From Balneolaceae bacterium (GTDB lineage: Bacteria > Bacteroidota > Rhodothermia > Balneolales > Balneolaceae): DNA of 64,000 nucleotides. The stretch's first letter is position 1. The number at the start of each line of letters is the position of its first letter. The translations under genes and the position numbers were made by a program. A model generated the notes under the pieces. That model saw nothing but the letters and a program-made list of their open reading frames with translations. It was not told the DNA's origin and searched no databases. Positions 32,639 through 48,762 of this stretch are shown here, piece by piece. The DNA is taken from positions 248,001 to 312,000 of the forward strand of contig JAEPNO010000001.1 in the NCBI GenBank assembly GCA_017643365.1. Direction: 5' to 3'.

Positions 32639-33253
32639 ATGGATTTAGGAATTGTAACAAGTTATATCATTGCAGGAATACTGATTATTATCATTTTAAC
32701 CGTAGGTTATAATGTAAACTTCAGTGGAAATGAACTCACACTGCACGAATCTCAGAAAATTAAAATTGATGCTGTGATCGATGCTGTAAGCTATGATTTA
32801 CCCAAAATTGGATATAATCAGAACAATCGTCCGGATACCATGCTGGTGTATGCAGATTCCACAATGCTGCAGTTTTATTCCAATATAGATAACAGCAATG
32901 ATGAATCACTTGAGTTGATTACTTGGCAATTTTCAACCGACCCTATTACTGCCACCGATAACCCGAACGACTTTTATCTTTACCGTACCATCGACGGTAC
33001 TAGCATAACCATGGGAGTAGGAATCACAGATTTTACTATAAATTATTATGATGAATTAGGGTCCACTACCCCTCTTACGCTACCCATCTCAGCTATAGGA
33101 AATAAATCAAAAATAGATTCAATTGTTCAGCTTGAGTTAATTATCGAAAGTCAGAGTCCGGTTGCATTGCAGTATTCCTCTGAAACGACCCCGAGATATA
33201 TTACAACAACCTGGACTAAACGATTCTCACCATCCAACTTAAATTTAAATTAG
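32639..33253 (+). CDS. PilW-like single-TM pseudopilin-like protein, set 1
   Basis: A 204-aa protein with an N-terminal TM helix (VTSYIIAGILIIIILTVGYNV, about 5-25), then the sequence IDAVIDAVSYDLPKIGYNQNN and a beta-rich domain ending TPRYITTTWTKRFSPSNLNL. Two blocks are shared with the protein at 34894-35475: a NPNDFYLYRT / NPNDYYLKRT motif and a closing T/K-R-F/I-P-N-L strand. The helix-then-DLxKIGxN arrangement resembles PilW-type minor pilins, but no prepilin peptidase cleavage motif is seen. It lies between the PilV-like and PilX-like members, six bases ahead of the latter. Confidence 0.58.
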   Translation: MDLGIVTSYIIAGILIIIILTVGYNVNFSGNELTLHESQKIKIDAVIDAVSYDLPKIGYNQNNRPDTMLVYADSTMLQFYSNIDNSNDESLELITWQFSTDPITATDNPNDFYLYRTIDGTSITMGVGITDFTINYYDELGSTTPLTLPISAIGNKSKIDSIVQLELIIESQSPVALQYSSETTPRYITTTWTKRFSPSNLNLN

Positions 33254-33259
33254 GCGCTT

Positions 33260-34363
33260 ATGGGACGAGGAATGATAATTTTAGCGATCGGCGCTTTTAT
33301 GGTTTTAGGATTAATCCAATTCAATTTATTTGAACACCGCGAGCGTATTCAAACCTTTAATTCAGATTACGCAAAAGAAATTCAGTCAAAAAATGTTGCA
33401 CATACAGCCATTCAGTTGGCAATGGAACAAATTAATGAAGACCCAACCTGGCAACCTACTTCAGCTAACCCATGGACTCGGGAAATAGACGATGCATATA
33501 TAGAGCTTTATTACGATGTATTGGCAACCGGAGCCGGACCAACTGATCCGGATTCCATCAGAATTTACAGCACTGCCTGGTATGGTGGCAGAGGAACTAA
33601 AGGCTCTGCAGAATACAAAGCTAATTCTGAATCACACCAAATAGTAAGTACTTATTTAAAATCCGGTTTACATTTTGTTCCTGAAGCTGCGGGCGGATTA
33701 GGATTAGCAAGTGGAAATTTCACCTTTAATATGAGTGGTAGTGCATCAATTAGCGGGAATGATGCCTCAGGTACATGCGATGATATTCCTGCAATTACCG
33801 TTCCCACACTGGATGACTATATTGAAGTTGTTGATGGCGCGAATTTTAGTAATATGGAGAGCAGTGAAGATTTAGTTGCCATCGATCCCGACATCTCATA
33901 CAGTCCTGTTGATGAACTTATTGAGCGGTTATCAAACGAACCGGGTGTTGTTGATGTAAGCGGAAATTATAAAGGGGATTTCGGTTCAGAAGATGAGCCC
34001 GGGATATTTTTTGTTGAATCATATGCAAAATTAACCGGTGGAATTCCGGATGGATACGGAATTATGGTGATTCGGTCCGGAGGTGAATTAGAATACGAAG
34101 GAGCATTATCCGTATCTGGTAATTTTACTTTTAACGGCCTGATTATCTTTGAAAATGCTTTTGATTTCACTGGTAAAGGCACCCCCGATTTAAATGGATC
34201 TGTGTTAATTGGTAATACGCCGGGAAACAACACAACGCTTGATATAGACCTTGGTGGTTCCATCAATATTCAGTACGATTGTCAGGCGATTGATTATGCA
34301 CGGGTAGCGTCAGCCACACATCTAAAACAGAATCGATATACAAGGGTTAGTACATTCGAATGA
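33260..34363 (+). CDS. PilX-like membrane protein with a beta-helical C-terminal domain, set 1
   Basis: A 367-aa protein starting MGRGMIILAIGAFMVLGLIQ (one TM), followed by KEIQSKNVAHTAIQLAMEQINEDPTW, a helix characteristic of PilX/GspK-like N-termini. The C-terminal 150 residues (YGIMVIRSGGELEYEGALSV then GNFTFNGLIIFENAFDFTGK and GTPDLNGSVLIGNT) have repeating short strands of the kind seen in PilX-associated DUF4900-like or bactofilin-like domains. Its paralogue is at 35485-36960. A 107-base gap follows, so set 2 may have its own promoter. Confidence 0.58.
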   Translation: MGRGMIILAIGAFMVLGLIQFNLFEHRERIQTFNSDYAKEIQSKNVAHTAIQLAMEQINEDPTWQPTSANPWTREIDDAYIELYYDVLATGAGPTDPDSIRIYSTAWYGGRGTKGSAEYKANSESHQIVSTYLKSGLHFVPEAAGGLGLASGNFTFNMSGSASISGNDASGTCDDIPAITVPTLDDYIEVVDGANFSNMESSEDLVAIDPDISYSPVDELIERLSNEPGVVDVSGNYKGDFGSEDEPGIFFVESYAKLTGGIPDGYGIMVIRSGGELEYEGALSVSGNFTFNGLIIFENAFDFTGKGTPDLNGSVLIGNTPGNNTTLDIDLGGSINIQYDCQAIDYARVASATHLKQNRYTRVSTFE

Positions 34364-34470
34364 TGTTAAATAGATTCTAATGTAACAAACCGCCTTTTGG
34401 CTTCCACATTAAAGCAAGCTAACTACATCTAAGATGTAAAGCGTTTATTTTAATCTATAAATTTAAGGCA

Positions 34471-34890
34471 ATGAGCAGTTACGCTGAACTTACTTACTTG
34501 ATCGGAGCAATGGTTATTTTTGGGTTTTTATCCCTTAATACCGCTCGTAGTTTCAATTCCGGCCGTCAGGCTATTTACCAGGCTGAAGCAGAATACCGAG
34601 CTATCGCTGTAGCACAAGACGAACTCGATAAGGTGCAATGGATTTATGATTCGGATGAACTCGATCCAAACAGTGGTGATTATGTGTACGCTAATTATCC
34701 GATCAATGAAGTTCATAATTACGGAGATAGTGATCAGTATAACTCAACGTTTATTATTAATGGAACCTCAGAATTGATCGAAGATACCGGCTCCATGAAA
34801 AAATATCAGGTTACAGTATCTGTTCTCAATCAAAACGTAACTCCTGAGGTGTTTATCACCCTCGAATACGTTAAATCCTATACTTACTAA
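34471..34890 (+). CDS. PilV-like single-TM pseudopilin-like protein, set 2
   Basis: A 139-aa protein built like the first member of set 1: N-terminal helix YAELTYLIGAMVIFGFLSLN (4-23), then AEAEYRAIAVAQDELDKVQW and a beta-rich domain ending VFITLEYVKSYTY. The alignment with the 32138 protein is clearest at xYxEL...AMVIxxFLxxNxxR and IAVAQDxxxx. No prepilin peptidase motif is seen. The start at 34471 is followed three bases after its stop by the PilW-like gene, so the set is operonic. Confidence 0.58.
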   Translation: MSSYAELTYLIGAMVIFGFLSLNTARSFNSGRQAIYQAEAEYRAIAVAQDELDKVQWIYDSDELDPNSGDYVYANYPINEVHNYGDSDQYNSTFIINGTSELIEDTGSMKKYQVTVSVLNQNVTPEVFITLEYVKSYTY

Positions 34891-34893
34891 ATC

Positions 34894-35475
34894 ATGAATG
34901 CAGGACTTGCCATAACATTTGTGATTGGTGGATTGTTTATGATCTCTATTTTGAACTTTAATGCTCAAGTGATCAATCAAACCCAAGAACTTACACTAAG
35001 TACAATTAACCAATCTAATTTGGATAATCTGGTTGATGTACTCGCTAATGATTTTAATAAAATTGGCTTTAATACTGGTACAGCTGTGCCTTTTACCACT
35101 ATTAGTGATAAAAACATCATTTTTCAAGCCGATGTGTACGACAACGACAGTTATGGCTCTACAAACATTCGCTGGTTCTTTGATGTAAATGATGCTGTTA
35201 GCAGTACCAACCCCAACGATTATTATTTAAAACGAACAGGCCCAATTGGTACAAGTTCGTACGGAACTATTGAGTTCCCGGTAGTTTATTTCGACTTAAA
35301 CTATTACACCGCCGATGGTACCCCAACCAATGATTTGGCATCTGTAAAAAAGATTGAAGTTGAATTGATGATAGAAACCGTGGAACCCTATACGGTAACA
35401 GGAAGCACCAAAGAATATCCTCGATTGATTTGGAAACGCATCTTTGTACCAAACAATATTAACCTACCATATTAA
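34894..35475 (+). CDS. PilW-like single-TM pseudopilin-like protein, set 2
   Basis: A 193-aa protein with TM helix LAITFVIGGLFMISILNFNA (about 5-24), then NLDNLVDVLANDFNKIGFNTG, a beta-rich domain with NPNDYYLKRTGPIGTSSYG, and the closing RLIWKRIFVPNNINL. The same three landmarks are present in the set 1 paralogue (32639-33253): DVLxxDxxKIGxN, NPNDxYLxRT and a terminal basic strand followed by NxNL. It is nine bases upstream of the PilX-like gene, which has a good AGGAGAAG ribosome site. Confidence 0.58.
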   Translation: MNAGLAITFVIGGLFMISILNFNAQVINQTQELTLSTINQSNLDNLVDVLANDFNKIGFNTGTAVPFTTISDKNIIFQADVYDNDSYGSTNIRWFFDVNDAVSSTNPNDYYLKRTGPIGTSSYGTIEFPVVYFDLNYYTADGTPTNDLASVKKIEVELMIETVEPYTVTGSTKEYPRLIWKRIFVPNNINLPY

Positions 35476-35484
35476 GGAGAAGTT

Positions 35485-36960
35485 ATGGGAAGAAGTTTAT
35501 TATTTCTCGTAAGCGGATTAACGATTATTACCGGAATTGTACAGGTAAATAATCAAGAGCGATTGACTGCAATACCGGTTGTAACAACCGATTACTACAA
35601 AGCACAACAGGCTAGAAACTTGTCGAAAAGTTTAATCGACAATGCCGTTGAAACCATGAAAGACAATAACAACTGGACCGGCAGCATCGATATTGATGAT
35701 GTTGTTGATACAAAAGCATTGGTTTCTCGTTCGTCTGATGGCCGAAAAAAATTAAGCCTTGGCTTGTTAAACTTAGATCAAGTATTAGCCATTGAAGAAG
35801 AGCTAGAAGATCAACTTGAAGAAAATACAGGAATACAATTACCTGTTAACCTAAACGGTACGTTAACGAGTTATACGCAAAACAGCCAGGATATGCCTAA
35901 TAATAGCGTAGGTAGCTGGGATGAATACAAAGTGTTATTAGTAAGCTCAAGCACTTACGATGACGTTGAGGTTACTACCGAAGTACTAATGCAACGCGAT
36001 TCATTTAGTAAATACTCTTATATGACTCAATCTGAATTAGGCGCTTCAGGTAATACCATTTGGTTTATGGACGCCGATAATATTTATGGACCAATACATA
36101 CCAATGGCGAGTTTGCTATGTCTGGTTCTCCTTCGTTTTATGGATTAGTTACCAGCCCGAATATGTGGAGAGCGCACGAAACTAATCCAACAAGTCCAAA
36201 TTTTTATGGTGGCGAGAATTTTAATGCCCCACGTAAAGACGAACCGACTTCTTATGAAGTAAATCGCCTTGTTGATGCCGCCAACGATGGTGGGAAAAGA
36301 TATTCAGGAGATATAGACGTTGACTTTTATTACGATGCCAACGGTGGATACGCTGATATTTCTTACGGTGGTTCTCCCGGAAATGGATGTGCAAACTGGA
36401 TGTGGTGGTGTACTCCTATCCCTCCTACGGCCCCTTCAGTTGAAACAGTAAACTTAGCTAATATCAATGGCGTGATTTCTACCGATGGAGAAATTACCGT
36501 TGAAGGAAATGTGAATGGCGATGTTACACTTCACTCGGAAGACAAAATCGAAATTATTGGCGATATCGTTTATAAAACCAGCCCTCTCGATGATTCAACT
36601 TCAACAGATTTGTTAGGTTTAGTAAGTGAAGGCAATGTCATTGTAGACAGATACGCCCACACTGCATCAGGTACTCAAGATCTTACTGTACATGCTTCTA
36701 TAGTTGCCTTAAATACCTCGTTTACAGTAGAGAATTACAACTCTGGTGGAAACAAAGGCACCTTAAATATGTTAGGTGGAATTATTCAGCAAAATAGAGG
36801 TCCTGTTGGCACATTTTCTGGTAACACTGTTGTTTCAGGTTATTCGAAAAACTATCAATACGACAACCGATTAAAAGCTAGTATTCCGCCATCTTTTCCA
36901 AGAGAAAGCGTATTTTCTATCGTATATTGGAAAGACGAAGTAACTAAAATAACTGAGTAA
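35485..36960 (+). CDS. PilX-like membrane protein with large extracytoplasmic domain, set 2
   Basis: A 491-aa protein with N-terminal helix MGRSLLFLVSGLTIITGIVQ and the PilX-like helix YYKAQQARNLSKSLIDNAVE. The large C-terminal part contains FMDADNIYGPIHTNGEFAMS and SPSFYGLVTSPNMW, the DUF4900-type landmark (a beta-helical, bactofilin-like domain), and further repeated strands (GVISTDGEITVEGNVNGDVT, IEIIGDIVYKT). Ribosome site AGGAGAAG lies just upstream of the ATG at 35485. It is the second and longer copy of this family in the run. The role is unknown; a surface or envelope scaffold that partners the pilins downstream is plausible. Confidence 0.6.
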   Translation: MGRSLLFLVSGLTIITGIVQVNNQERLTAIPVVTTDYYKAQQARNLSKSLIDNAVETMKDNNNWTGSIDIDDVVDTKALVSRSSDGRKKLSLGLLNLDQVLAIEEELEDQLEENTGIQLPVNLNGTLTSYTQNSQDMPNNSVGSWDEYKVLLVSSSTYDDVEVTTEVLMQRDSFSKYSYMTQSELGASGNTIWFMDADNIYGPIHTNGEFAMSGSPSFYGLVTSPNMWRAHETNPTSPNFYGGENFNAPRKDEPTSYEVNRLVDAANDGGKRYSGDIDVDFYYDANGGYADISYGGSPGNGCANWMWWCTPIPPTAPSVETVNLANINGVISTDGEITVEGNVNGDVTLHSEDKIEIIGDIVYKTSPLDDSTSTDLLGLVSEGNVIVDRYAHTASGTQDLTVHASIVALNTSFTVENYNSGGNKGTLNMLGGIIQQNRGPVGTFSGNTVVSGYSKNYQYDNRLKASIPPSFPRESVFSIVYWKDEVTKITE

Positions 36961-37455: not shown

Positions 37456-37953
37456 ATGAAAAAGGCATTTTTAATTTTACTAATTTTCATTTTTCCGGCA
37501 ATAAGTCATGCTCAGGAGAGTACAGAACTTAGAGCAGAGGTAAATATTAATGCACAAATAATTAGATCAATTGATCTGATTACAATAAATACCATGACCT
37601 TTGGTAATGCTCAGCCTGGGCAAGAGAGACTTTACGTAAATCCAATTAATGACGTAAATTCTGGATTTATGGTAGCATTAGGCACACCGGGTGCTGCATT
37701 CCGACTTGATTATTTAAATGAACGAAGACTTACACAAATTGACGGGCCGGGTTTTTTAATTTTCAGATACGAACTTTCTGGAAATTCTGTTGAAGAACAA
37801 TCTTCTTCTGAATTACTTGAGGTTGTAAACCGTAACCTTCAATTTAATAATGAAGGAAGATATTATTTTTGGGTTGGCGGTGAAGTAAACATTGAAAATG
37901 CTCTCCCAGGTAATTATGAAGGTGATTTCACTATTGAAATAGACTATATATAA
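37456..37953 (+). CDS. DUF4402-like pilin subunit 1
   Basis: A 165-aa exported beta protein with signal peptide MKKAFLILLIFIFPAISHAQ. The N-terminal region (LRAEVNINAQIIRSIDLITI, then MTFGNAQPG) and C-terminal strand match the DUF4402 family, which occurs as pilin subunits with chaperone-usher systems. The C-terminus is GNYEGDFTIEIDYI: a Gly 14 residues from the end and a penultimate Tyr, with alternating hydrophobics, as in classical chaperone-recognised pilins. A ribosome site (AGAAGAGG) precedes the ATG at 37456. Its stop overlaps the start of the next pilin by one base (TAATG). It is one of four such subunits here, likely minor. Confidence 0.75.
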   Translation: MKKAFLILLIFIFPAISHAQESTELRAEVNINAQIIRSIDLITINTMTFGNAQPGQERLYVNPINDVNSGFMVALGTPGAAFRLDYLNERRLTQIDGPGFLIFRYELSGNSVEEQSSSELLEVVNRNLQFNNEGRYYFWVGGEVNIENALPGNYEGDFTIEIDYI

Positions 37954-38543
37954 TGTATCAAAAAGTAATTTTAATATTACTACTTACAATTACTCATGTT
38001 AATTTATATGCTCAAGAATTAAACTTTGGTAGCGACTATAGCTCAATATATTCTGTTTCTATATCTGATTTAAACCCAGGATTGGATCTTGATTTTGGCT
38101 TGCTAGCTAAAAACGAAGGAGTCAGTAGCTTATCAATGAACGAAAGCAAAGTAATTTCAATTGAAGGTGTTCGATATCTTGATGTTTATGTAGAGATCAT
38201 GGCTGATGAGTATTTACTGAAAGATGGAAACCCGTCTTGCGCAACTAATCCAAGTTGCAGAATTCCATTTACTTTACAGGCTGCTTATGCTAACCGAGGG
38301 CAAAATAATACCGCACAAAGCACAATCATGAACGTGTTAAGCTTTACAGCTACTGCTCTTTTCCCCATAAAATATAGAGGGAATGCACCGCCCGGCCCAC
38401 CTCCTACCCCTGTTTATTCTGGCTACAACCCGGCACTTTTTAACGAAACTGCCTACTTATATATATACGGTTCTATCAATGTGGGTAATGTTGATGCTGG
38501 AAGTTACACTTCAGATATCACCATAACTGTATCTTATGACTAG
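37953..38543 (+). CDS. DUF4402-like pilin subunit 2
   Basis: A 196-aa exported beta protein with signal peptide MYQKVILILLLTITHVNLYAQ. It has NPGLDLDFGLLAKNEG near the N-terminus, a Cys pair (NPSCATNPSCRIPF) that could form a disulfide, and the C-terminus GSINVGNVDAGSYTSDITIT then VSYD, with Gly at -14 and penultimate Tyr. It overlaps the previous gene by one base and the next by eight, so the three small pilins are translated as one unit. Probably a minor or tip-proximal subunit; the Cys pair sets it apart. Confidence 0.72.
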   Translation: MYQKVILILLLTITHVNLYAQELNFGSDYSSIYSVSISDLNPGLDLDFGLLAKNEGVSSLSMNESKVISIEGVRYLDVYVEIMADEYLLKDGNPSCATNPSCRIPFTLQAAYANRGQNNTAQSTIMNVLSFTATALFPIKYRGNAPPGPPPTPVYSGYNPALFNETAYLYIYGSINVGNVDAGSYTSDITITVSYD

Positions 38544-39066
38544 AATAAGATCATATGTAGGGTTTATCATTTTATCTGTTTTATTCAACAGTAGTGCAAG
38601 TGCTCAATTTTTAAATTTTCAAATATCCATTGAACCTGAATTGAGTGCTACCGTTGAACGAGAGCTTAATTTTGGAACAGTTATTACAAATTCCGGCGAA
38701 AAGTATATCGATTTAGGGGATGTTGATATGGGAATATTTAGAATAAGAGCGTATTACACTCAAAATATCTTTGTTTCATTTACCCCCCCAGAAGCTTTAA
38801 GACACATAAACCCTTCTGTTGATGAAGAAATACAACTAGATTTAAACATCGCTTATAATAATATATCACGCAATGTAAGAGATGCTTTAATATTAGATGA
38901 TAATATTGGTTTTCTATCTTTTGACAGTAATTTTAATGTAAACACTGCACGTACATCCGATGTTTGGGAAGAAATTGAATTATACGTTTACGGCTCAATA
39001 AATGTAGGTAATATACCAAACGGTATTTATGAGGGTAATGCAATATTGAATATAGATTATGATTGA
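38536..39066 (+). CDS. DUF4402-like pilin subunit 3
   Basis: A 176-aa exported beta protein with signal peptide MTRIRSYVGFIILSVLFNSSASAQ. Family landmarks: IEPELSATVERELNFGTVIT at the start of the mature protein and VYGSINVGNIPNGIYEGNAI then LNIDYD at the end, again with Gly at -14 and penultimate Tyr. It overlaps the previous gene by eight bases. A 110-base gap with no strong hairpin separates it from the fourth pilin, which probably has its own transcription start. The role is likely a minor subunit of the same fibre. Confidence 0.72.
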   Translation: MTRIRSYVGFIILSVLFNSSASAQFLNFQISIEPELSATVERELNFGTVITNSGEKYIDLGDVDMGIFRIRAYYTQNIFVSFTPPEALRHINPSVDEEIQLDLNIAYNNISRNVRDALILDDNIGFLSFDSNFNVNTARTSDVWEEIELYVYGSINVGNIPNGIYEGNAILNIDYD

Positions 39067-39176: not shown

Positions 39177-39701
39177 ATGAAAAAGCTTAATCTTTTATCC
39201 GCCTCATTACTTGCTTTAGTACTTACTTTTAATGCTAATGCACAAACTTCAGATTCAGATAACATTTCTGCAACTGCTACTGTAGTAGGTGCAATTTCTG
39301 TAACTCCTGTTGATGCACTTGATTTTGGAAGCATTTTATCATCCGAAACTCCAGCAATTGCTGCTACCGATGCAAACTCAGGTTCAGCAACCATTACTGC
39401 AGAAGATGGACAAGTTGTTAATGTAACTGTTACATTTCCAACAACATTAACTGGTTCTTCAGGAAGTTTAACTCTTGGAACATTCGATGTAAACGTTGAC
39501 AATGATGGTGCCGTTCGCGCTGGTTCTGCCGACTTAACTGGTGAAGCAATTACTGGTACTAATAGTGAAATTTATGACGGTACATACACTGCTTCAGGTA
39601 CAACTGCTACTATCTTTGTAGGTGCAGCGATTACTACTAACAGTGGTGTTGCCGGTGTTGATTACTCAGGTAACGTATCTGTTGCTGTTGATTACAACTA
39701 A
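39177..39701 (+). CDS. DUF4402-like pilin subunit 4, probable major shaft pilin
   Basis: A 174-aa exported protein with signal peptide MKKLNLLSASLLALVLTFNANAQ and a low-complexity, Thr/Ser/Ala/Gly-rich acidic mature part without Cys. It follows the DUF4402 pattern (VVGAISVTPVDALDFGSILS at the start, GVDYSGNVSVAVDYN at the end); penultimate Tyr is kept and the Gly is one residue off (-15). It is set apart from the other pilins by 110 bases upstream and by a strong intrinsic terminator 26 bases downstream, the arrangement expected of the highly expressed major subunit. That is inference from context. The gene is followed by chaperone and usher. Confidence 0.75.
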   Translation: MKKLNLLSASLLALVLTFNANAQTSDSDNISATATVVGAISVTPVDALDFGSILSSETPAIAATDANSGSATITAEDGQVVNVTVTFPTTLTGSSGSLTLGTFDVNVDNDGAVRAGSADLTGEAITGTNSEIYDGTYTASGTTATIFVGAAITTNSGVAGVDYSGNVSVAVDYN

Positions 39702-39727
39702 TTAAAAAGTAATTAGTATTAATTACA

Positions 39728-39762
39728 CCCCATTAATCTGTTGATTAATGGGGTTTTTTTTT
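39728..39762 (+). terminator. Intrinsic terminator after the fourth pilin
   Basis: A perfect 11-bp stem, CCCCATTAATC (39728-39738) and GATTAATGGGG (39743-39753), with loop TGTT is followed by nine T (39754-39762). It would end or attenuate the pilin transcript ahead of the chaperone-usher genes. Confidence 0.88.
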
Positions 39763-39788
39763 GACATTTTTTTGATATAGAATAATAA
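39761..39788 (+). promoter_or_regulatory. Candidate sigma70-type promoter for the chaperone-usher-motor genes
   Basis: TTGACA (39761-39766) and TAATAA (39783-39788) are 16 bases apart, and the ATG of the chaperone gene is 52 bases downstream. The -35 element overlaps the T-run of the terminator, so the downstream genes could be restarted there. Promoter consensus in this phylum differs from E. coli, so the call is tentative. Confidence 0.35.
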
Positions 39789-39839
39789 TGTGATTTCTAT
39801 CTTTGTTTTTAAGTATTTTACTCGAAATAATCTTCAGAC

Positions 39840-40685
39840 ATGTCTATTACTATATTAAAACGGGTTACACTTACAATTGCGTTTGTGTTGCTTTGCACAA
39901 ATCTTAAAGGGCAAGTTACCATCGCCCCAACTAATATGTTCTTGAGCGACAGTAATCCTTTTGGAACATACATGGTTATTAATGGTTCGAGCGAAGCACA
40001 GGAAATTTCAGTCGATTTTCTATTTGCTTATTCTGCAACCGATGAAAATGGTAATCGAAGAATAATTCAAGATGATTCCACCTTTGCAGAGAATCATTCA
40101 ATTGCTAATAAAGTAAGGGCGTTCCCTCGCAACTTCACTTTAGCACCTGATCAGCGTCAAATTGTTCGGTTAAGATTATCTGACACAAATAGTCTTGAAG
40201 ATGGTACTTATTGGGCTAGAATTAGAACAAAATCGGTTCCAGAAACTCCACCAATCGAGGTTCAAAATACTACCACTGTTTCAGCTAGAGTTGGCATTAC
40301 CTTTGAGCAAGTAACTGGCTTATTCTTTAAAAAAGGTAATGTAACAACAGGTATTGATATTAAAGACATCAAAACTGAAATTAATGCGGAAAACCAAAAT
40401 GAGTTGATTGTACTTGCTGATTTTGATCGTACAGGCAATTCACCATTTCTTGGAACAATTACTATGTCTATTCGTGATTCTAATAATCGTGAATTAGTTT
40501 CTGACTTTGTTTCAACATCACATTATTTTGGTGGTACTCACCGTCAGACACTAGATATATCTAGTCTAACCAATGGAAACTATCAACTAACCGTTGAGTT
40601 TGCTACTAAAAGAACTGACGTTTCTGAAGCTGATTTAGTAAGAATGCAACCCGTAAGAAAATCAATATCATTCACTAAAAATTGA
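39840..40685 (+). CDS. Periplasmic PapD-like pilus chaperone
   Basis: A 281-aa exported protein with signal peptide near 5-24 and two Ig-like domains. The chaperone pattern reads VTIAPTNMFLSDSNPFGTYM at the N-terminus, then RAFPRNFTLAPDQRQIVRLRL (the P...F.L.P...Q..R pattern of strand F), YWARIRTKSVPE, VSARVGITFEQVTGLFFKKG at the domain boundary, and a C-terminal Ig domain. It would bind pilins in the periplasm and hand them to the usher. The Arg used by PapD to grip the pilin C-terminus is not obvious (N is found near that site), so it is a divergent member. It overlaps the usher start by four bases. Confidence 0.8.
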   Translation: MSITILKRVTLTIAFVLLCTNLKGQVTIAPTNMFLSDSNPFGTYMVINGSSEAQEISVDFLFAYSATDENGNRRIIQDDSTFAENHSIANKVRAFPRNFTLAPDQRQIVRLRLSDTNSLEDGTYWARIRTKSVPETPPIEVQNTTTVSARVGITFEQVTGLFFKKGNVTTGIDIKDIKTEINAENQNELIVLADFDRTGNSPFLGTITMSIRDSNNRELVSDFVSTSHYFGGTHRQTLDISSLTNGNYQLTVEFATKRTDVSEADLVRMQPVRKSISFTKN

Positions 40686-43678
40686 TCAAAAGAAAATTAT
40701 CTCGGTTTCTTTCTTTTCTTTCAATAATACTTTTCACACAGTCATTATCTAATCTTTCTTATTCTCAATCAAACGACCCCTTTGAAGTTTATTTAGATTT
40801 TAATCATAGGGGAATCATTAACACTGTAGTTATTAGCTACTATGCTGACGATACCTTCTACCTTCCCGTTAATGAGATTTTTAATTTATTTAATATCGAA
40901 GCTGACTATGATGGTTTAACCATTAGCGGAAGATTTTCAAGTGAACAAATTGAATATTCTATAAATCTTGAACGTCAGGTTATCGTTTTTGGTAATGAGA
41001 GCTATAAGCTTGAGGTAGAAGATTACTATTTAAACGAATTAGATGTCCACTTACCCATCAGATTATTTTCTGAAATATTCGATTTAAATTTTAGTGTTGA
41101 TTTCAATCAGCTTTTGCTAAACCTAGAAACTAATGTTGAACTCCCTATCATTCAACAGGCTTTAAGAAATCAAGAGCGTAGAATTTCTAATACTACTGTA
41201 ACAACTCCAAGATATCCTCTTTATCAGTCCCGCTCCTCAAATAAATTAATCGACTTGGGTTTCTTAGATTATGGTGTTCAATACAATACAGACGGTAACG
41301 AGCAAATTTTGAACATTAGTAATTCTATTGGATTAAATTTACTTGGTGGTGACTTAAGTGGTAATGTATTCGCAAATATTAATAATCAAATCTCATCTTA
41401 CGAAACAGATAATTTAAGATGGGTTTATACCTCAACTGAAACTCCATTGTTTACCAATATTAGTATTGGTCAACTCAATTCAGACGGTGTATTAATGTCG
41501 CCATATATGGGGATCAGAGTATCAAATGAACCCATTATACCAAGAACTTTATTTGATGAGTTTGAGGTATCCGGTACAGCAATTCCTCAATCTGAAGTTG
41601 AGTTATATTTAAATAACAGATTAGTTGGATTTTCAAGAATTGATGATTCAGGTAACTACCGTTTCTTGATTCCAATTTCGTACGGGAACTCACAAATTGT
41701 GCAAAAAATTTATGGTCCAACTGGGCAAGTGAAAGAACAAAATACACGACTTCAAATACCATTTAACTTTGTACCCAAAGGAGAAATCAATTATAACCTC
41801 AATATTGGACAATTAAATAATTTTATTATTGGTTCTACCCAGGTAAATAATATTGGGCAATTTAATACGAGTGTTGGTATTACTAGTTGGCTTACCGCAA
41901 AGCTTGGTGTAGAAAACTATTATAATGATTCATCTAATAATACGTTTTTTACAAGTACAATTTCTTCAAGAATTAATACAAATAATATTTTCACTCTCGA
42001 GGCAGTTTCTGATAGCTATCTACGTGGATCATTAAACTCAATTTTTCCAAATTCGACCAGCTTAGGAATCGATTATGTTAATTATAAAAACAACTCAAAT
42101 TTCTATAATCAATCGAATTATAATTGGCAGTTAGTTACTACCACTTTTATACCGTTTAAGTTAGGGAGCGTTCCATTAAACGTTCGAGCTTCGAGTTTTT
42201 TAAGAAAAAGAGAAACCGGATATTTCAATACACTAAGATTTGATTTAATAAGCAGAATTAAAAGATTAAGCTTTAGGACCAGTTATAGTGATCAACAAAT
42301 AGATGAATTTAATCCGTTTAATTCATCAAACTTATCTAAAATAGAATCATCAGCTAGCTATTCTTTTGAAAGATCAAGAGAAACCTTACAGTTCTTTAGA
42401 GGAGCTACTCTTAGGTCGCAGCTAGTTTATTTTATTGGAATAAATGAATTTAAATCTGCAGAATTATTCTTTACTAAAAACGTCTCTGAAAATGGACGAT
42501 TTCAAATATCTGTAGGAAGAGATTTTAGCGGGGACTTTAATACTATTCGGTTTAATCTCATATTTAATTTTAAAAATTTCAGGTCAAATACTACTTTTAA
42601 TAGTTTAAGAGGTGCTTACAGTGTAGCCCAGAGCCTAAGAGGCTCTATTGGCTATGATAGTAATACCAATAACATATTATTCTCAAACAGAGATCAGGTT
42701 GGTAGAGGGGCATTATCAACAAGAATGTTTTTAGACAATAATAATAATAGAGTTTATGATAAAGATGTTGACGAAATCATCCCTGAAGTTTCGTTACGAA
42801 TAGACCGAAGTGGTACAAAAACGGAAAGTAAAAATAATGTGATTTATAACTCATTGATTCAGCCAAATATTAGGCTAAACGTTGAAGTAAATAAAGCAAC
42901 CATTAAGAATCCAATGCTTGTACCCGAAGTGGATAAGTTTTCGATTATTACTGAACCAAATAAGTATACATCTGTTGATATTCCATTTTTTCAGGCTGGA
43001 GTTATTGAGGGAATTGTGGAAAGGCAATTTGAAGATGGAGTAACAGATGGAATTGGTGGTCTTAAAGTTCTTTTAACATCTCAAAAAGATAATACTGTTA
43101 AAGAACTTCGCACATTTTCTGATGGAAGTTTCTATGATTATCCACTACCACCTGGTAAGTACACCTTACAAGTTGATAACCAACAATTATCTTTTTTACA
43201 AGCTACATCTAAACCCGAAAAAATAGATTTTGAAGTAGAAGCGGTGACAAATGGTGACTTTATAGAAGGCTTAAGTTTTGTATTAATTCCTGATGCTGAT
43301 GCCGAACAAGATCAACAAACAATCCAAGAACAGATCACCATCGCGCAGGTAACCGACGAGATCAAATCGTCGCCTGAAATATTAGAATATTCTCAGGAAG
43401 TATTTAAAGAGGTGGATGATGCATTACGACTTATAATTCATGCGCAGAACGCATTTTATTCCAATAACATAGACCTAGCCTTCCGATTTGTGAGCGAATC
43501 ATTAGAACTTTTTGAAACTGCACAAGGACACGCTTTAAAGGGAAGTTTTTATTATTTTGAAGGTAATATCGACCAGGCGCAGCGACATTGGGAACAAGCA
43601 CTCCGGTTTAATCCTGATTTAGTAATACCAGATATGGAATTACTGGAAGAACGGGTTAATAGGCGTGCATCAGACTAA
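40682..43678 (+). CDS. Outer-membrane usher with C-terminal TPR tail
   Basis: A 998-aa outer-membrane usher that would secrete and polymerise the pilins; classical ushers are 800-850 aa. Start TTG 40682 overlaps the chaperone stop (TTGA), indicating translational coupling; signal peptide FLSFLSIILFTQSLSNLSYS. After an N-terminal domain (DPFEVYLDFNHRG...FYLPVNEIF) comes a beta-barrel with a plug-like segment near 297 (SGTAIPQSEVELYLNNRLVG, GNYRFLIPI), then FLDNNNNRVYDKDVDE near 683, a carboxypeptidase-like C-domain (GIVERQFEDGVTDGIGGLKV), and an extra C-terminal helical tail, about 912-995, with TPR character (AQNAFYSNNIDLAFRFVSES, ALKGSFYYFEGNIDQAQRHW). The tail resembles the TPR protein at 45537-46064. 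Three 60-base lines in this gene count 32, 22 and 38% G+C, against 45% for one line in pdhB. Confidence 0.8.
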   Translation: MIKRKLSRFLSFLSIILFTQSLSNLSYSQSNDPFEVYLDFNHRGIINTVVISYYADDTFYLPVNEIFNLFNIEADYDGLTISGRFSSEQIEYSINLERQVIVFGNESYKLEVEDYYLNELDVHLPIRLFSEIFDLNFSVDFNQLLLNLETNVELPIIQQALRNQERRISNTTVTTPRYPLYQSRSSNKLIDLGFLDYGVQYNTDGNEQILNISNSIGLNLLGGDLSGNVFANINNQISSYETDNLRWVYTSTETPLFTNISIGQLNSDGVLMSPYMGIRVSNEPIIPRTLFDEFEVSGTAIPQSEVELYLNNRLVGFSRIDDSGNYRFLIPISYGNSQIVQKIYGPTGQVKEQNTRLQIPFNFVPKGEINYNLNIGQLNNFIIGSTQVNNIGQFNTSVGITSWLTAKLGVENYYNDSSNNTFFTSTISSRINTNNIFTLEAVSDSYLRGSLNSIFPNSTSLGIDYVNYKNNSNFYNQSNYNWQLVTTTFIPFKLGSVPLNVRASSFLRKRETGYFNTLRFDLISRIKRLSFRTSYSDQQIDEFNPFNSSNLSKIESSASYSFERSRETLQFFRGATLRSQLVYFIGINEFKSAELFFTKNVSENGRFQISVGRDFSGDFNTIRFNLIFNFKNFRSNTTFNSLRGAYSVAQSLRGSIGYDSNTNNILFSNRDQVGRGALSTRMFLDNNNNRVYDKDVDEIIPEVSLRIDRSGTKTESKNNVIYNSLIQPNIRLNVEVNKATIKNPMLVPEVDKFSIITEPNKYTSVDIPFFQAGVIEGIVERQFEDGVTDGIGGLKVLLTSQKDNTVKELRTFSDGSFYDYPLPPGKYTLQVDNQQLSFLQATSKPEKIDFEVEAVTNGDFIEGLSFVLIPDADAEQDQQTIQEQITIAQVTDEIKSSPEILEYSQEVFKEVDDALRLIIHAQNAFYSNNIDLAFRFVSESLELFETAQGHALKGSFYYFEGNIDQAQRHWEQALRFNPDLVIPDMELLEERVNRRASD

Positions 43679-43679
43679 A

Positions 43680-45521
43680 ATGCACAGAATACGTCACATA
43701 TATGCCTCTATGCATGCTAAAATTCAACCAAATTTTGGCCTGACATTCCTTTCTTTTGTATTTCTCGTTGCTCTTCTTTTACTCCCTTTCGAAAATGTTC
43801 GCTCTCAAACTTCTTACGATGCATCTAGCTCACAGTCGCTAGATTTACGAGTTTCTAACTTAGAACAGCAATACGACTCCCAAATCATTCAAATTCTTTC
43901 TAACTACTTTAACAGAAAGAAATTCTTTATCGATGTTAACATAAACGCTGAATTAGTTGAACAAACTATTGGTACAACAAGTAATCAAGTAGTATCAAAT
44001 AGCCAACCCGAAGAAAATCTGATGATGCCCGGGTTACCCTTTTTACCCCAACAAAACTTAAGGCAACCTACCCGTCGAAACACTCAACCACAAACGGTTG
44101 TAAACGAAAATACGATCAAAACACTGCGGATTGTAAACATGAGTGTTAACATCTATGCAGATACTTCGATTACTACCGCACAACTGGAGTTGATGCGCTT
44201 TATCACGGGAATTGCTGTAAAGGTAAATGAAAACCGCGGCGATGAAATCAACATCAATCAACTTGCAATCCCCGACTATACCGAAGCACCTGAACCTGTT
44301 ACAGCCACAACGGTAACCCAACCGCCTGCCCTTCCCGATTACAACTCGATATACACGTATATTCCTGCCTTAGCGCTCATGTTACTATTTGGGTTAACCT
44401 TGCTGTTCAATCGAATCATGAACAAGCCTCAGCCTCAAATGCCGATGCGGGATTTCAGAGAATCGTTTAAAAATGATATGGCTTTTCAGCAACAGGCTGC
44501 ATCACAAACTGCATTAAGCACTTCTACTGATGAAAGAATAGAAGAAACGGAAGAAGACTTATCAGCTGAAGAACTTGTAAATGCATTCTTTACCAAGCCC
44601 GATGAAATCGCCACTATTTTTAGATATTGGTTAAGCGAAGAGGAAAACGGAGCTAAAAAAGCAGCTGAATATTTAGTTGCCGTAGATAAACACTTGCTCA
44701 GAACGTTGAAAAAAGAACTGCACCCAGAAGATTACGATACGTTGACGGATGCAGTTATAGAGCAGGAAAAACTATCACCGGAAAAACGTGCAGAAATTAT
44801 TCAGGAATTCGGTCGTATGCTTCAGCAAGGAGCTAAACAAACCGTTACTGAAAAGAAACGAAGTAAGTTTTCTTTGTTTAAATTTTTGGATCATATTTCA
44901 GACAAGCACATCCTTACTTTGCTTGAAACAGAGGATAGTTTATCGGGGGCGTTTATTCTGCAATATATTCCCGATGATAAAGCTGCCATTTTGATTGAGA
45001 AACTGGATAAAGAAATTGCTGCTAAAATCATGCTTCATATGGCGTCGTTGAATAATCTTACGAACGAACAGCAGCATAAAATTTCATCCGAGCTTTTTGA
45101 TAAAGCGATGGATCTTGTTGAGGCAGAACGTAGCGAACAATACGGTGCAGAGCATCTCTATCCTATTCTTGAGCGTCTTCCGGTTAATGAACAACAACGA
45201 TATATTGATGAGCTTAAAGCAACCGGTTCTATAGTAGGTGCAATTCTTGAGAAGCAGTTTATCACAATTGATAAATTACCGGAATTAAGCGACGAAGTGA
45301 TTAAGAAAGCTGTTCGAACTTTAAATACCGAAACCTTATTAGATGCAATTTTTGGCCTTCCACCCCAAGTTGTTGATCGAATTTTATCTGCACGACCTAA
45401 GCGCGAGCAACGGTTATTGCGAATGGAATTAGATGAGCTTCAAGGAACCTCAGGTCGCCAAACAGAATATGCCAAAGCCTTGTTGATGAACTCAATTCGA
45501 AAGAATGCAAATGACCAATAG
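43680..45521 (+). CDS. FliF-like/FliG-like fusion protein (putative rotor)
   Basis: A 613-aa protein whose halves recall FliF and FliG. An N-terminal hydrophobic segment (NFGLTFLSFVFLVALLLLPF) is followed by a periplasmic part with FliF C-region character: IIQILSNYFNRKKFFIDVNI, then LRIVNMSVNIYADTSITTAQ and VNENRGDEININQLAIPDY. A TM helix at about 227-246 leads into a cytoplasmic part with three FliG-like blocks: N (from ~297, EELVNAFFTKPDEIATIF; LSPEKRAEIIQEFGRML), M (from ~402, ILQYIPDDKAAILIEKLD; AAKIMLHMASL) and C (from ~530, LSDEVIKKAVRTLNTETLLD; PKREQRLLRMELDELQ, whose charges parallel the FliG torque helix). ATG 43680 follows the usher stop by one base; an in-frame GTG at 43665 is less likely. 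The EHPQ motif of FliG is degenerate. FliG homology is my reading and needs profile confirmation. Confidence 0.72.
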   Translation: MHRIRHIYASMHAKIQPNFGLTFLSFVFLVALLLLPFENVRSQTSYDASSSQSLDLRVSNLEQQYDSQIIQILSNYFNRKKFFIDVNINAELVEQTIGTTSNQVVSNSQPEENLMMPGLPFLPQQNLRQPTRRNTQPQTVVNENTIKTLRIVNMSVNIYADTSITTAQLELMRFITGIAVKVNENRGDEININQLAIPDYTEAPEPVTATTVTQPPALPDYNSIYTYIPALALMLLFGLTLLFNRIMNKPQPQMPMRDFRESFKNDMAFQQQAASQTALSTSTDERIEETEEDLSAEELVNAFFTKPDEIATIFRYWLSEEENGAKKAAEYLVAVDKHLLRTLKKELHPEDYDTLTDAVIEQEKLSPEKRAEIIQEFGRMLQQGAKQTVTEKKRSKFSLFKFLDHISDKHILTLLETEDSLSGAFILQYIPDDKAAILIEKLDKEIAAKIMLHMASLNNLTNEQQHKISSELFDKAMDLVEAERSEQYGAEHLYPILERLPVNEQQRYIDELKATGSIVGAILEKQFITIDKLPELSDEVIKKAVRTLNTETLLDAIFGLPPQVVDRILSARPKREQRLLRMELDELQGTSGRQTEYAKALLMNSIRKNANDQ

Positions 45522-45536
45522 ATGTTCAGGTGATTC

Positions 45537-46064
45537 ATGATTAATAGGCCTGCTTTACTGTTGTTTTTATTTTTTAGCATTTTCATTCTTCACTGCTCTT
45601 CCAGCATTCAAGCTGTTGATCCGATTCCCGAAGAAAACACTCTTTCTCTAGAAGATTCCTTACAAATAGCACTGCAGGACAGCATTGATCAAGCACAGGC
45701 TAAAGAAGAAGAGCTTCGCAATGCGCTAATTGAATTATATAAAGACGAAATTTATTCGCGGTATCAAGCCCAAGCTAATACACTCACCAATTACTACATT
45801 TTAGCCCAACAGCATTTTTACTCGGGTGATTATGAAAATGCATTATTTCTTATCAATCGAGCCGCGCTTATCAAAGAAAATGCGGATGTTCTTGCATTGC
45901 GAGGTAGCGTTTACCTTGGTTTAGGATATATCAATGAATTTGTAAATCATTGGAGACGAGCCCTTGAATTGGACCCCGAAGTTCCCATACCTTCTTCAAC
46001 ATATATCATTCAACAATTGCAGAACAATGGTCTAATCGACGAAAACTTAAAAAAGAGTTTCTAA
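45537..46064 (+). CDS. TPR-like lipoprotein or exported protein
   Basis: A 175-aa protein with signal sequence PALLLFLFFSIFILHCSSSI; the Cys could be lipidated, although His at -1 is unusual for a lipobox. After an acidic coiled-coil-like part (SLQIALQDSIDQAQAKEEEL) the C-terminal half has TPR-type helices: YYILAQQHFYSGDYENALFL, VLALRGSVYLGLGYINEFVN, HWRRALELDPEVPIP. The same pattern (AQxxFYSxNxxxAxxxxxxS, ALxGSxYYxxGxIxxxxxHW) is the C-terminal tail of the usher. It sits 15 bases after the FliG-like gene and 6 before the MotA-like gene, and so is a probable envelope linker between outer-membrane usher and inner-membrane motor. That role is inferred. Confidence 0.68.
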   Translation: MINRPALLLFLFFSIFILHCSSSIQAVDPIPEENTLSLEDSLQIALQDSIDQAQAKEEELRNALIELYKDEIYSRYQAQANTLTNYYILAQQHFYSGDYENALFLINRAALIKENADVLALRGSVYLGLGYINEFVNHWRRALELDPEVPIPSSTYIIQQLQNNGLIDENLKKSF

Positions 46065-46070
46065 CCCTGA

Positions 46071-46868
46071 ATGCGTACATCAATTCTAAATATTCTATGT
46101 TTTCTTATCTCTTTAGTAGTACTGGTGTGGGGTGCGCTACTTGTTACAGGGTATACCCAATATGATCTAATTCCTTCTAGATTAGCATTCTTGAATATCC
46201 CAAGCCTTGCTATCGTTTTCGGGGGTATCACCGCTAGTGTATTTATTAGTTACCCGTTTAATAGCGTAGTTAAAGCGCTGGTTGAAAGCACCAAACTCTT
46301 TTCCTATAGTACCATCACCCATGAAGTGCTGGAAGAAGACATCCAAAGAGTGATGGATTGGCAGAAGATGATCAAACAAGATAAATATGCGGCAGTGAAT
46401 CAATTAAGCGAAGAATATGCTGATCGATTCGAAGGCTATTTATTCTCCATTCTCGACACCAATTACGACACTGAAGATTTACGCGAGCTTGGCGAAATCA
46501 ATATCGAAGAAAATTATAGTCGCCAGCAGATGGTAAATCAGATAATTGCCAGTATGGGTAAAACCTCACCGGTTTTTGGTATGCTGGGTACACTTTTTGG
46601 GTTGATTGTGATCTTATCCGGATTTAGTGAAGTGGAATCATTATTAAGTGGATTAGGAGCTGCTTTAATGACAACATTGTATGGAATCCTGATCGGAAAC
46701 TTCATTTTCACACCTATGGCTAAGAAGATGAACAATGTTGCCTCACTTCGATATTTTAGAGAGAAGCTAATTCTGGAGGGCATCATTCTTATCGAAGAAC
46801 AAAAAACATCTCTACAAATTTACGATAAGCTACAGGCACATATGCGCCGCAACAAAAATATGCTTTAA
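46071..46868 (+). CDS. MotA/TolQ/ExbB-family stator subunit, MotA-like
   Basis: A 265-aa inner-membrane protein of MotA layout: TM helices at about 6-26, 42-62, 165-188 and 195-216, with a ~95-residue cytoplasmic loop between the second and third and a cytoplasmic tail. SLAIVFGGITASVFISYP matches the MotA helix 2 signature (SLxIVxGGTxxAxxISxP), and MGKTSPVFGMLGTLFGLIVI matches helix 3. The two conserved prolines are present at P167 and P215, spaced as in E. coli MotA (P173, P222). These position the ion path with the MotB Asp. The long loop and size favour MotA over ExbB/TolQ/GldL. Placed six bases after the TPR gene and ten before MotB. Confidence 0.88.
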   Translation: MRTSILNILCFLISLVVLVWGALLVTGYTQYDLIPSRLAFLNIPSLAIVFGGITASVFISYPFNSVVKALVESTKLFSYSTITHEVLEEDIQRVMDWQKMIKQDKYAAVNQLSEEYADRFEGYLFSILDTNYDTEDLRELGEINIEENYSRQQMVNQIIASMGKTSPVFGMLGTLFGLIVILSGFSEVESLLSGLGAALMTTLYGILIGNFIFTPMAKKMNNVASLRYFREKLILEGIILIEEQKTSLQIYDKLQAHMRRNKNML

Positions 46869-46878
46869 GTGGGTTGGT

Positions 46879-48762
46879 TTGAAGAAAAAGAAACCCATAC
46901 GGATTAAATACTCCCTTTTTCCGATCCAAGATGAAGAATCGGAAGATGATGATAGCTGGCAAGTTAGCTACCTCGATATCATTACGATCGTTTTAGGATT
47001 TCTGATCATTCTCCTTTCTGTCTCTCAAATTACTAAATCAGAATTCTCTTCCCTTTCCTCAATATTTGGGAAACTTGCGGATGAAACGGAGTTTCTAACC
47101 ACACCAATTGGTGCTATTGAAAGCGAGTTATTCGAACTGCTTCAGTCTGAAATAGAAGCCGGTAATCTTGAGATTATTCGCGATTTAAATGACTTGAGAA
47201 TTCGTTTTAAAAGTGATGATTTATACGAACCGGGTAGAGCGACCTTTGATTCTGAATCGGAGCAGCTATTGAATACGGTGCTTATTGCTTTACAGCAATT
47301 GGAATACAACGATTTCAGTATTGATGTTGAAGGTCACACCGATAACACCCCAATCTCGTCGGTTGCTTATCCATCGAATTGGGAGCTGTCAACAGCCCGG
47401 GCGGCCAATGTAGTTAAATATTTTAATGATTCTGGAATACCGGCCAATCGTTTGAAAGCATCCGGTTATGCGGATTCTCGCCCTGTTATTGAATACGATT
47501 CCTTAGGTTTTCCTTTTGCCGCGAGTAAGGATAAAAATCGTCGGGTAGTACTTCGACTTTATTATTCTTCGGATAATCTGAAAGAAGAAATTCTAACTCA
47601 GCCTGAAACAGAACAAGAATTGCTAGCTGAAGAAACCAACCAAAGTGAAAGTATTGAAGGCGTAATCCCGGAAATCTCTGATCTCCCTCCTCCTGCTCAA
47701 ACTGAGAATGTTGTTGTATTAGCGGATCAACCGGCATTGCTAACGGTGATGGAAGAAAATCGAATTCAAGAGCAACTTGAAGCAGAACGTGCTGCTGCAG
47801 AACAACGATCTCAGGAAACGGAATCAGAGCCTCAAACTCGGAATAACGAAGCTCGACCAGAGACAACTACTCCTGTTGATACACCGACTGAAAATCAGAC
47901 TGAAAGTGAGCCTGAAGTTACTCAACCAGTGCAAGAACAAATAACAGAACCGGAGCCCGAACCTGCTCCCCCACCAGCGCCTACAAACGCAATGCCTTCG
48001 TTGCTTAAAGTGGATGCACGTTGCCAGTACTCCGTGCAATTAGGCGAATATGGTTCTTTGCAAAACGCATTTCAACGTGCTGAGTCGATAGAGTCTTCAA
48101 ACCTCTCTGATATCATGCTAACTTATAATACTAATGAGTACTCGGTTCGAACTGCTCCCATTTCTTCGTTCTCAGAGGTTTTATCGCTACGTGATGAGCT
48201 TTCAACACGATTTAATGATAAGAACGTGAGTGTGGTGCATCAGTGCTACAATAATACCATAAAGCGCCCGAAAGCAGTGAGGTATCTAATTCAGTTCGGC
48301 GCTTTTCAGAATCGTGCTACTGGTTTGGATTACACCATTGAGCTACTAGATCAATATGGTGTTCAGGCTTATATGAACCGGGTTTCAGATACTTTTAACG
48401 TGTTAACTGGACCTTATGAGTCGAGAGAAGAAGTATTAAGCCAGTTACGAGCTTTCCGCGAAATGGGAATTTCATCTAATCTCTTTATCCGCCATCAACC
48501 GGAAACTGCTGCACCCTATAAATATGCATATCAGATAGAAGTTGCTCAGCGTAACTCTCAACAGGAAGCAAATGAATTAGCGCAACAAGTGCGCTCAAGA
48601 ACCGGAATAAATACTCGAGTTGAAGAACTTGTATCCGGGCGATTTTCTGTAATGACGGGGCAGTCAGTAAATAAAAACGAAACTCAGACAATTTTCAATC
48701 GCCTGTTAAACTCTGGCTTTTCAATAGATCCCGTGATCTTTTATCTAGAGTATATTCCTTAA
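46879..48762 (+). CDS. MotB-like stator subunit with OmpA and three SPOR domains
   Basis: A 627-aa stator partner. Start TTG 46879, basic N-terminus, then a single TM helix WQVSYLDIITIVLGFLIILL with the ion-binding Asp at D33 (YLD, the position of MotB D32). A plug/linker (SSIFGKLADETEFLTTP) is followed by an OmpA peptidoglycan-binding domain at about 110-235 (IDVEGHTDNTPISS, WELSTARAANVVKYF, NRRVVLRLYY). A Glu/Pro/Gln-rich linker (about 240-375) leads to three SPOR domains, starting near 382 (CQYSVQLGEYGSLQNAFQRA), 468 (YLIQFGAFQNRATGLDYTIE) and 548 (YAYQIEVAQRNSQQEANELA). SPOR domains bind denuded glycan strands. The combination would anchor the stator doubly. Typical MotB is about 300 aa; the extension is unusual. 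It is the last gene of the run. Confidence 0.87.
   Translation: MKKKKPIRIKYSLFPIQDEESEDDDSWQVSYLDIITIVLGFLIILLSVSQITKSEFSSLSSIFGKLADETEFLTTPIGAIESELFELLQSEIEAGNLEIIRDLNDLRIRFKSDDLYEPGRATFDSESEQLLNTVLIALQQLEYNDFSIDVEGHTDNTPISSVAYPSNWELSTARAANVVKYFNDSGIPANRLKASGYADSRPVIEYDSLGFPFAASKDKNRRVVLRLYYSSDNLKEEILTQPETEQELLAEETNQSESIEGVIPEISDLPPPAQTENVVVLADQPALLTVMEENRIQEQLEAERAAAEQRSQETESEPQTRNNEARPETTTPVDTPTENQTESEPEVTQPVQEQITEPEPEPAPPPAPTNAMPSLLKVDARCQYSVQLGEYGSLQNAFQRAESIESSNLSDIMLTYNTNEYSVRTAPISSFSEVLSLRDELSTRFNDKNVSVVHQCYNNTIKRPKAVRYLIQFGAFQNRATGLDYTIELLDQYGVQAYMNRVSDTFNVLTGPYESREEVLSQLRAFREMGISSNLFIRHQPETAAPYKYAYQIEVAQRNSQQEANELAQQVRSRTGINTRVEELVSGRFSVMTGQSVNKNETQTIFNRLLNSGFSIDPVIFYLEYIP

Follow-up and report, generated by a model that had tools for sequence, protein, structure and literature searches.

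A chaperone-usher pilus operon carrying a flagellar-type rotor fusion and stator in Balneolaceae: a candidate ion-driven rotary machine of the cell envelope

The DNA analysed here (the window) is a stretch of 64,000 nucleotides from a Balneolaceae bacterium (GenBank assembly GCA_017643365.1, contig JAEPNO010000001.1, positions 248,001 to 312,000). One operon of the window encodes a pilus chaperone, an usher, a fusion of FliF and FliG (FliFG), a tetratricopeptide repeat (TPR) protein, MotA and MotB. We propose, with a probability of roughly 0.6, that the products form a rotary machine that spans the envelope, is driven by ions and builds on a pilus system of the chaperone-usher type. Three patterns found by sequence comparison of related loci argue for a mechanical coupling of usher and motor: the TPR tail of the usher accompanies the motor, SPOR domains are swapped between usher and stator, and FliG_C is lost together with MotA and MotB.

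The six genes are located on the plus strand. The chaperone gene (39840-40685) overlaps the usher gene (40682-43678) by 4 bases. The fusion gene (43665-45521) starts with GTG at 43665 or, 15 bases downstream, with ATG at 43680, and the gap to the usher gene is 1 base in the latter case. The genes of the TPR protein (45537-46064), MotA (46071-46868) and MotB (46879-48762) follow after gaps of 15, 6 and 10 bases, respectively. The original prediction had described these six genes as one tightly packed operon, and its open reading frames, gaps and overlaps were reproduced here.

The fusion protein consists of an N-terminal membrane helix, a periplasmic FliF ring-like domain (residues about 49-228), a second membrane helix and a cytoplasmic FliG part with N, M and C domains (residues 329-616). 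Using the protein starting at 43665, the Pfam domains FliG_C, FliG_M and FliG_N were matched with E-values of 7.9e-10, 3.1e-8 and 4.4e-8, respectively, all of which pass the cut-offs. A profile of 25 family members was compared with solved structures, and it detected FliG with an E-value of 8e-33 and the M-ring of Salmonella FliF (6scn) with an E-value of 1.1e-4. The latter match spans residues of about 355-560 of FliF, which is its last part, and includes the second membrane helix. According to these Pfam and profile matches, the protein is a natural fusion of the C-terminal part of FliF and FliG, in line with the FliF-like/FliG-like fusion of the original prediction. The fusion is not a full FliF MS-ring protein, and the family profile matched the C-terminal FliF portion alone. 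The NCBIfam model fliG (TIGR00207) was matched by all 25 relatives of the fusion, and the model fliF by one of the 25; the window fusion itself scores 49 bits against TIGR00207, which is under the equivalog cut-off of 226.7 bits. An unrelated MgtE-like family was also considered for the FliG part. It was rejected, since MgtE_N stays below the cut-off whereas FliG_N, FliG_M and FliG_C are above it.

The FliG part differs from flagellar FliG. The identity to the flagellar FliG proteins of the order is 15-20%, and the EHPQ motif for FliM binding is replaced according to the family profile alignment. The torque residues of E. coli FliG, which we take to be K264, R281, D288, D289 and R297, were aligned by motif, and R281 and D289 (as Glu) are kept in the window fusion.

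The stator subunits are of the flagellar type, also in agreement with the original prediction. MotA matches Pfam MotA_ExbB (6.6e-17) and the NCBIfam models of MotP, PomA and MotA (1e-31 to 1e-26), whereas the TolQ and ExbB models gave E-values of just 0.03-0.04. Both channel prolines are conserved, and the large cytoplasmic loop has the flagellar size. MotB is composed of a channel helix with the invariant D33, a plug (MotB_plug), an OmpA-type peptidoglycan domain and a C-terminal tail of SPOR repeats (residues 381-627; 48019-48759), as identified by Pfam and alignment. As for the Zorya system, ZorA was not matched by MotA, and the likeness of MotB to ZorB arises from the shared MotB domains. 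No relatives of the window MotA were found in the viral contigs searched. The TPR protein (TPR_2, 6.7e-7) is a putative lipoprotein. It has a Cys residue near position 20, and a Cys residue follows a hydrophobic stretch in most of the family members.

The chaperone and the usher were identified by their predicted structures. The Pfam usher family PF00577 has no match anywhere in the genome at an E-value of 1e-3, and alignment profiles of the usher and the chaperone compared with the PDB gave TPR matches, weak matches or none. The AF2 model of the usher has a pLDDT of 85.5, and its best 19 PDB matches are FimD/PapC ushers with E-values down to 3e-29. According to the model, the usher is a large beta-barrel of divergent sequence with N- and C-terminal periplasmic domains and a FimD/PapC-type fold. 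The AF2 model of the chaperone (pLDDT 93.9) has two Ig-like domains, and the best Foldseek matches are CfaA, FimC and CsuC with E-values of about 1e-9; PapD_N was detected in 4 of the 16 members of the chaperone family. Both predicted folds thus bear out the original assignment. The C-terminal tail of the usher (residues about 890-998; 43349-43675) is helical in the model, and a TPR_2 match at residues 948-979 is below the cut-off. This tail is homologous to the TPR lipoprotein of the operon (pairwise E-value of 1e-12). A penultimate aromatic residue is a hallmark of chaperone-usher pilins, and it is present in 157 of the 183 relatives of the four pilins of the window.

The linkage between the usher and the motor was analysed by scanning GTDB genomes with the usher sequence alone, and the test is therefore independent of the motor. 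The scan gave 79 loci, and those truncated at the end of a contig or detected by way of FliG are left out of the tally. A TPR-tailed usher lies beside a FliFG at 18 loci, 48 loci have neither the tail nor the FliFG, and no locus has one of them alone. On the maximum-likelihood tree of the ushers, the trait of TPR tail and motor changes at least 10 times, and all of the 10 independent contrasts are concordant (sign test, p = 0.002); the tree is a quick build with some long branches, on which gains, losses and exchanges are indistinguishable. Three usher loci come from metagenome bins labelled Thioalkalivibrio, Methanofastidiosia and Nitriliruptoraceae (L104, L108 and L111). They group inside the Bacteroidota/Balneolota clade and are probably binning errors.

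The ushers of the motorless Balneolaceae end in C-terminal SPOR repeats, and the window MotB tail is homologous to these usher tails (phmmer E-values of 1.9e-22 to 4.6e-4). Across the examined loci, the usher bears SPOR repeats solely where the motor is absent (23 ushers), and MotB bears them in the motor operons of Balneolaceae. No usher bears TPR and SPOR tails together, where the TPR class of the tally counts some genomes twice. The versions with and without the motor occupy the same site beside the pyruvate dehydrogenase genes and alaS. From the common site and the swap of the SPOR tail, the motor cassette therefore falls precisely at the junction of usher core and SPOR tail. SPOR domains are peptidoglycan-binding. 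Thus, the usher would be tied either to the wall or to the motor, as befits a moving part. Short MotB proteins without SPOR are found in the distant motor operons L063, L067 and L070 and in paralogous loci, so that the motor can do without SPOR. The SPOR-repeat ushers themselves (L082, L085, L088, L091 and other motorless Balneolaceae) are possible wall-anchored ushers, and this fusion was not found in the searchable literature.

The motorless loci bear on what the motor may be for. If the motor powers the pilus pathway, cycling of the FliFG ring would pull or gate the usher for the export of subunits or of a large adhesin, or would retract the pilus, in a manner like that of TonB/ExbBD. The part coupled to the motor is indeed the usher, and the 5:2 motors ExbBD and TolQR act on outer-membrane partners (PMC9389320, PMC12204202). 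However, the motorless relatives at the same site carry a chaperone, an usher and pilins of like type, which indicates that pilus assembly does not need the motor, and 48 of the 66 ushers have no motor. Moreover, a FliG ring is a part of a rotor, and TonB/Tol-like systems have none. We consider such a powering of the pathway unlikely, though worth keeping in view.

The SPOR tails of the motorless ushers, being likely wall anchors, also fit a static arrangement, where the usher is kept fixed to the wall by the FliF part, the TPR proteins and MotB, and MotA and FliG are vestigial or act as a load sensor. Loci with the FliF part and without FliG_C and MotA/MotB persist in four genera. Four uncut loci with a TPR usher and a FliF part have no FliG_C (L068, L069, L071, which is the same as L087, and L187), and no MotA or MotB was found nearby. 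They keep FliF alone or FliF with a part of FliG, and may be static tethers or decaying motors. Against a static role of the complete operon, FliG_C is never missing from a fusion locus at which MotA or MotB is seen, which is what its use would predict; L054, L090 and L185 just missed the strict FliG_C threshold (model position 600 of 606) and are not true losses. In a comparison of the two closest genomes, MotA ranks first in conservation among the operon proteins with 96% identity and intact channel residues, followed by FliFG (83%), the TPR protein (82%) and MotB (78%), whereas the chaperone, the usher and the pilins show 47-65% (55% for the usher). The operon genes are under purifying selection between these genomes, where synonymous sites are saturated. 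According to these results, a purely static tether is quite improbable.

The search of 129 genomes of the order showed that fusions close to that of the window occur in 15 genomes of its family, the window's own among them, and more distant ones are present elsewhere. The complete order chaperone-usher-FliFG-TPR-MotA-MotB recurs in 13 other Balneolaceae genomes (L041, L043-L054). More distant six-gene examples come from a second family, f2 (L063, L067), and from a single genome of another class, where the TPR gene is likewise present as a reading frame (L192). Carriers of the system include some marine Balneolota. The named relatives are mostly metagenome assemblies; Balneola sp. EhC07 (NZ_LXYG01) has the operon. 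An accident of a single genome was rejected, since the gene order recurs in this way. Two outcomes that would have refuted the original prediction, a lack of FliG/FliF matches and a neighbourhood confined to one genome, thus did not occur.

The original prediction had pointed out the absence of flagellar genes. This is correct for the window, and genes for FliM/FliN, the rod, the hook, the filament and export are missing from the operon (no search aimed at flagellin was made). It does not extend to the source genome (3.77 Mb, 51 contigs, 99.8% complete), where a different contig encodes a complete canonical flagellum; absence from the window thus does not mean absence from the genome. Since this flagellum has its own separate FliG and MotA, the motor genes might be flagellar spares, a stator or a FliG, which lie beside the pilus genes by chance. 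However, FlhA and FliM/FliN (FliMN_C) are absent from 12 of the 22 tested genomes with the fusion of either type, which strongly disfavours this explanation and indicates that the motor is independent of the flagellum. FlhA and FliM/FliN are absent from the genome G001, which has a related fusion. In addition, the motor co-varies perfectly with the usher TPR tail, and the FliG of the operon is fused to the FliF part, lacks EHPQ and is distant from the flagellar FliG of the order. Chance placement of flagellar spares is hardly credible. A flagellar remnant was rejected as well, since fusion-bearing genomes without a flagellum exist.

The proposed rotary machine would work as follows. The MotA/MotB stator would be fixed to peptidoglycan by the OmpA-type and SPOR domains of MotB. 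As in other members of the family, ions would flow through a MotA pentamer at D33 of MotB and drive the machine. The stator would then push FliG_C of an inner-membrane ring formed by the FliF/FliG fusion. The periplasmic FliF part would be joined to the usher via the TPR lipoprotein and the usher TPR tail, the genes of which are coupled. The usher and its DUF4402 pilus would thereby be made to turn or move with respect to the wall. A CheY-type reversal switch is probably lacking because FliM/FliN are not needed, and the rotation is likely to be unidirectional. The machine probably serves surface movement or the active handling of an adhesive fibre, and the physical output may be rotation of the pilus, its translocation or power for secretion. 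The original prediction of an ion-driven machine acting on a chaperone-usher fibre is thus supported, as both halves are confirmed and their linkage evolves as a unit, and the motion itself is what we infer from them.

Several points weigh against this mechanism. To our knowledge, the known chaperone-usher systems assemble without energy, and none with an energy source is known. We also know of no direct precedent for turning an outer-membrane barrel with a pilus through it. Most of the periplasmic domains of FliF are missing from the fusion, and ring formation is therefore not assured. K264, D288 and R297 of FliG are not kept in the window protein, the position of R90 of MotA is occupied by K, R, N or Q, and E98 of MotA is not strictly aligned. 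As these charges are not strictly kept, the torque interface probably differs from that of E. coli. The motorless relatives with the FliF part only (L068, L069, L071 and L187) may act as static tethers, and the motion of the pilus is a reading of computational results.

The likeness to the flagellar motor includes the FliG N-M-C architecture with R281- and D289-type residues, the C-terminal FliF ring domain with the second membrane helix, the loop size and channel prolines of MotA, and D33, the plug and the peptidoglycan domain of MotB. Unlike in the flagellar motor, FliF and FliG are here one protein, which lacks most of FliF, would be attached to an usher, and is found in genomes without FlhA and FliM/FliN. 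The pilus half resembles the chaperone-usher pili of type 1, P, Csu and CFA/I in the FimD/PapC usher fold, the FimC/CsuC chaperone and the penultimate-aromatic pilins, whereas the usher is beyond the reach of PF00577 and has a TPR tail (SPOR in motorless relatives), and a motor is located at the end of the operon. The GldLM motor of type IX secretion and gliding is likewise an ion-driven motor of the 5:2 type, thought to move a surface fibre (SprB) in Bacteroidota. As far as we know, GldLM has no FliG, FliF or usher and belongs to a protein family different from that of the window MotA/MotB. Both TonB/ExbBD and Tol-Pal couple an inner-membrane ion motor to the outer membrane, and wall-binding proteins of the TPR and OmpA types are also part of Tol-Pal, but these systems have no rotor ring, usher or pilus. 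The MotA/MotB homologues of the Myxococcus AglRQS/Glt system act on outer-membrane partners through the wall, but without a FliG rotor. AglRS belongs to a generic clade of small-loop ion transporters (PMC12505986), whereas the window MotA matches the flagellar stators.

The ion-driven motors treated in PMC9389320, PMC12204202 and PMC12505986 are the flagellar, Exb, Tol, Agl, Gld and Zorya motors, and a usher-linked motor is not among them. No description of a usher-linked FliG/MotAB system was found in the searchable literature, outside subscription papers and bioRxiv, in agreement with the original statement that no such system is described; nor was a described case found of a FliG rotor working with MotA/MotB stators outside the flagellum. 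The question of rotor proteins without filaments has been raised (PMC12199754), and the operon is a concrete and testable candidate for the role of flagellar rotor proteins in bacteria without flagella. If the proposed machine is real, it would be a new kind of rotary motor acting at the outer membrane, and its rotor module would be transferable to an unrelated surface structure, which bears on the evolutionary assembly of flagella. No gliding had been reported in Balneolaeota by 2016 (PMC5167729), and surface movement by an usher and a motor would therefore be new biology in this group.

A second, usher-free motor locus is present on contig 33 of the same genome (G000, C33; L004:6505-11659, minus strand). 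It encodes a FliF/FliG fusion, a 361-residue protein, a TPR lipoprotein, MotA and MotB, and loci of this type were found by similarity in about 20 genomes. The 361-residue partner is probably an outer-membrane protein with a barrel-like C-terminus; the barrel character of the partners at usher-free loci is read from the sequence and a weak Pfam match. A third arrangement, partner-TPR-MotA-MotB-FliFG, is found in a family from a different class of the phylum (L183-L185, L194, and L193 in part), where the partner has 370-383 residues and some of the host genomes also have a canonical FliG. The same core is thus combined with different partners, which supports FliFG-TPR-MotA-MotB as the core of a general non-flagellar motor. 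Extending this, we give slightly better than even odds to a Bacteroidota family of FliF/FliG-MotAB rotary motors that drive exchangeable outer-membrane modules. Its window member would rotate or translocate a chaperone-usher pilus by ion flow, the cassette would have been gained, lost or exchanged at least 10 times on the usher tree, and the wall-anchoring SPOR would reside on the usher without a motor and on the stator with one.

The paralogous loci without an usher, near which large surface proteins are sometimes encoded, also bear on whether the pilus is the driven part at all. The motor might drive a usher-linked complex for a job other than the pilus, for example moving an adhesin exported by the type IX secretion system, such as the 2683-residue protein encoded upstream. 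This protein is adhesin-like with a type IX sorting tail, and similar genes are present in several relatives. However, the partners that stay constant with this type of motor are the usher, the chaperone and the pilins, and not the adhesin. A non-pilus function is accordingly very improbable, and the rotary machine acting on the pilus is preferred.

Four pilin-like genes precede the chaperone gene on the plus strand. The first (37456-37953) encodes a DUF4402 pilin-like subunit ending in EIDYI with a penultimate Tyr (Pfam DUF4402 7.6e-4, below the cut-off), and it is kept upstream of the chaperone in related loci. The second (37953-38543) encodes a DUF4402-like subunit ending in TVSYD, as judged from the comparison of related loci and the survey of pilin C-termini. 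The third (38536-39066) encodes a pilin-like subunit ending in NIDYD, again with a penultimate Tyr, and has an ortholog at the equivalent place in related loci. The fourth (39177-39701) adjoins the chaperone gene and encodes the probable major pilin, which ends in AVDYN (DUF4402 5.9e-4, below the cut-off). It is followed by a terminator-like hairpin (39727-39754, plus strand; 12-bp stem and T8) and then by a promoter-like site (39761-39789, plus strand; TTGACA-17-AATAAT, 11/12), the best of the region. As the hairpin and the promoter-like site set the major pilin apart from the operon, they suggest a single transcript from the chaperone gene through motB; both calls are consensus matches only, and promoter-like sites are no more numerous in the region than expected by chance. 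Downstream of motB, convergent genes are located: a PIN-domain gene, the pyruvate dehydrogenase genes and alaS.

Upstream of the pilins, the region 32138-36960 encodes two consecutive trios of small membrane-anchored proteins (166, 204 and 367 residues; 139, 193 and 491 residues). Both trios resemble pseudopilins or minor pilins by their N-termini, and the last protein has DUF4900. In several relatives, at least the third members of the trios are conserved ahead of the pilus operon. The gene of the 2683-residue protein (23989-32040) lies just upstream of the pilus cluster. The protein has an Invasin_D3 domain and a type IX secretion sorting tail, and related large proteins occur at several related loci.

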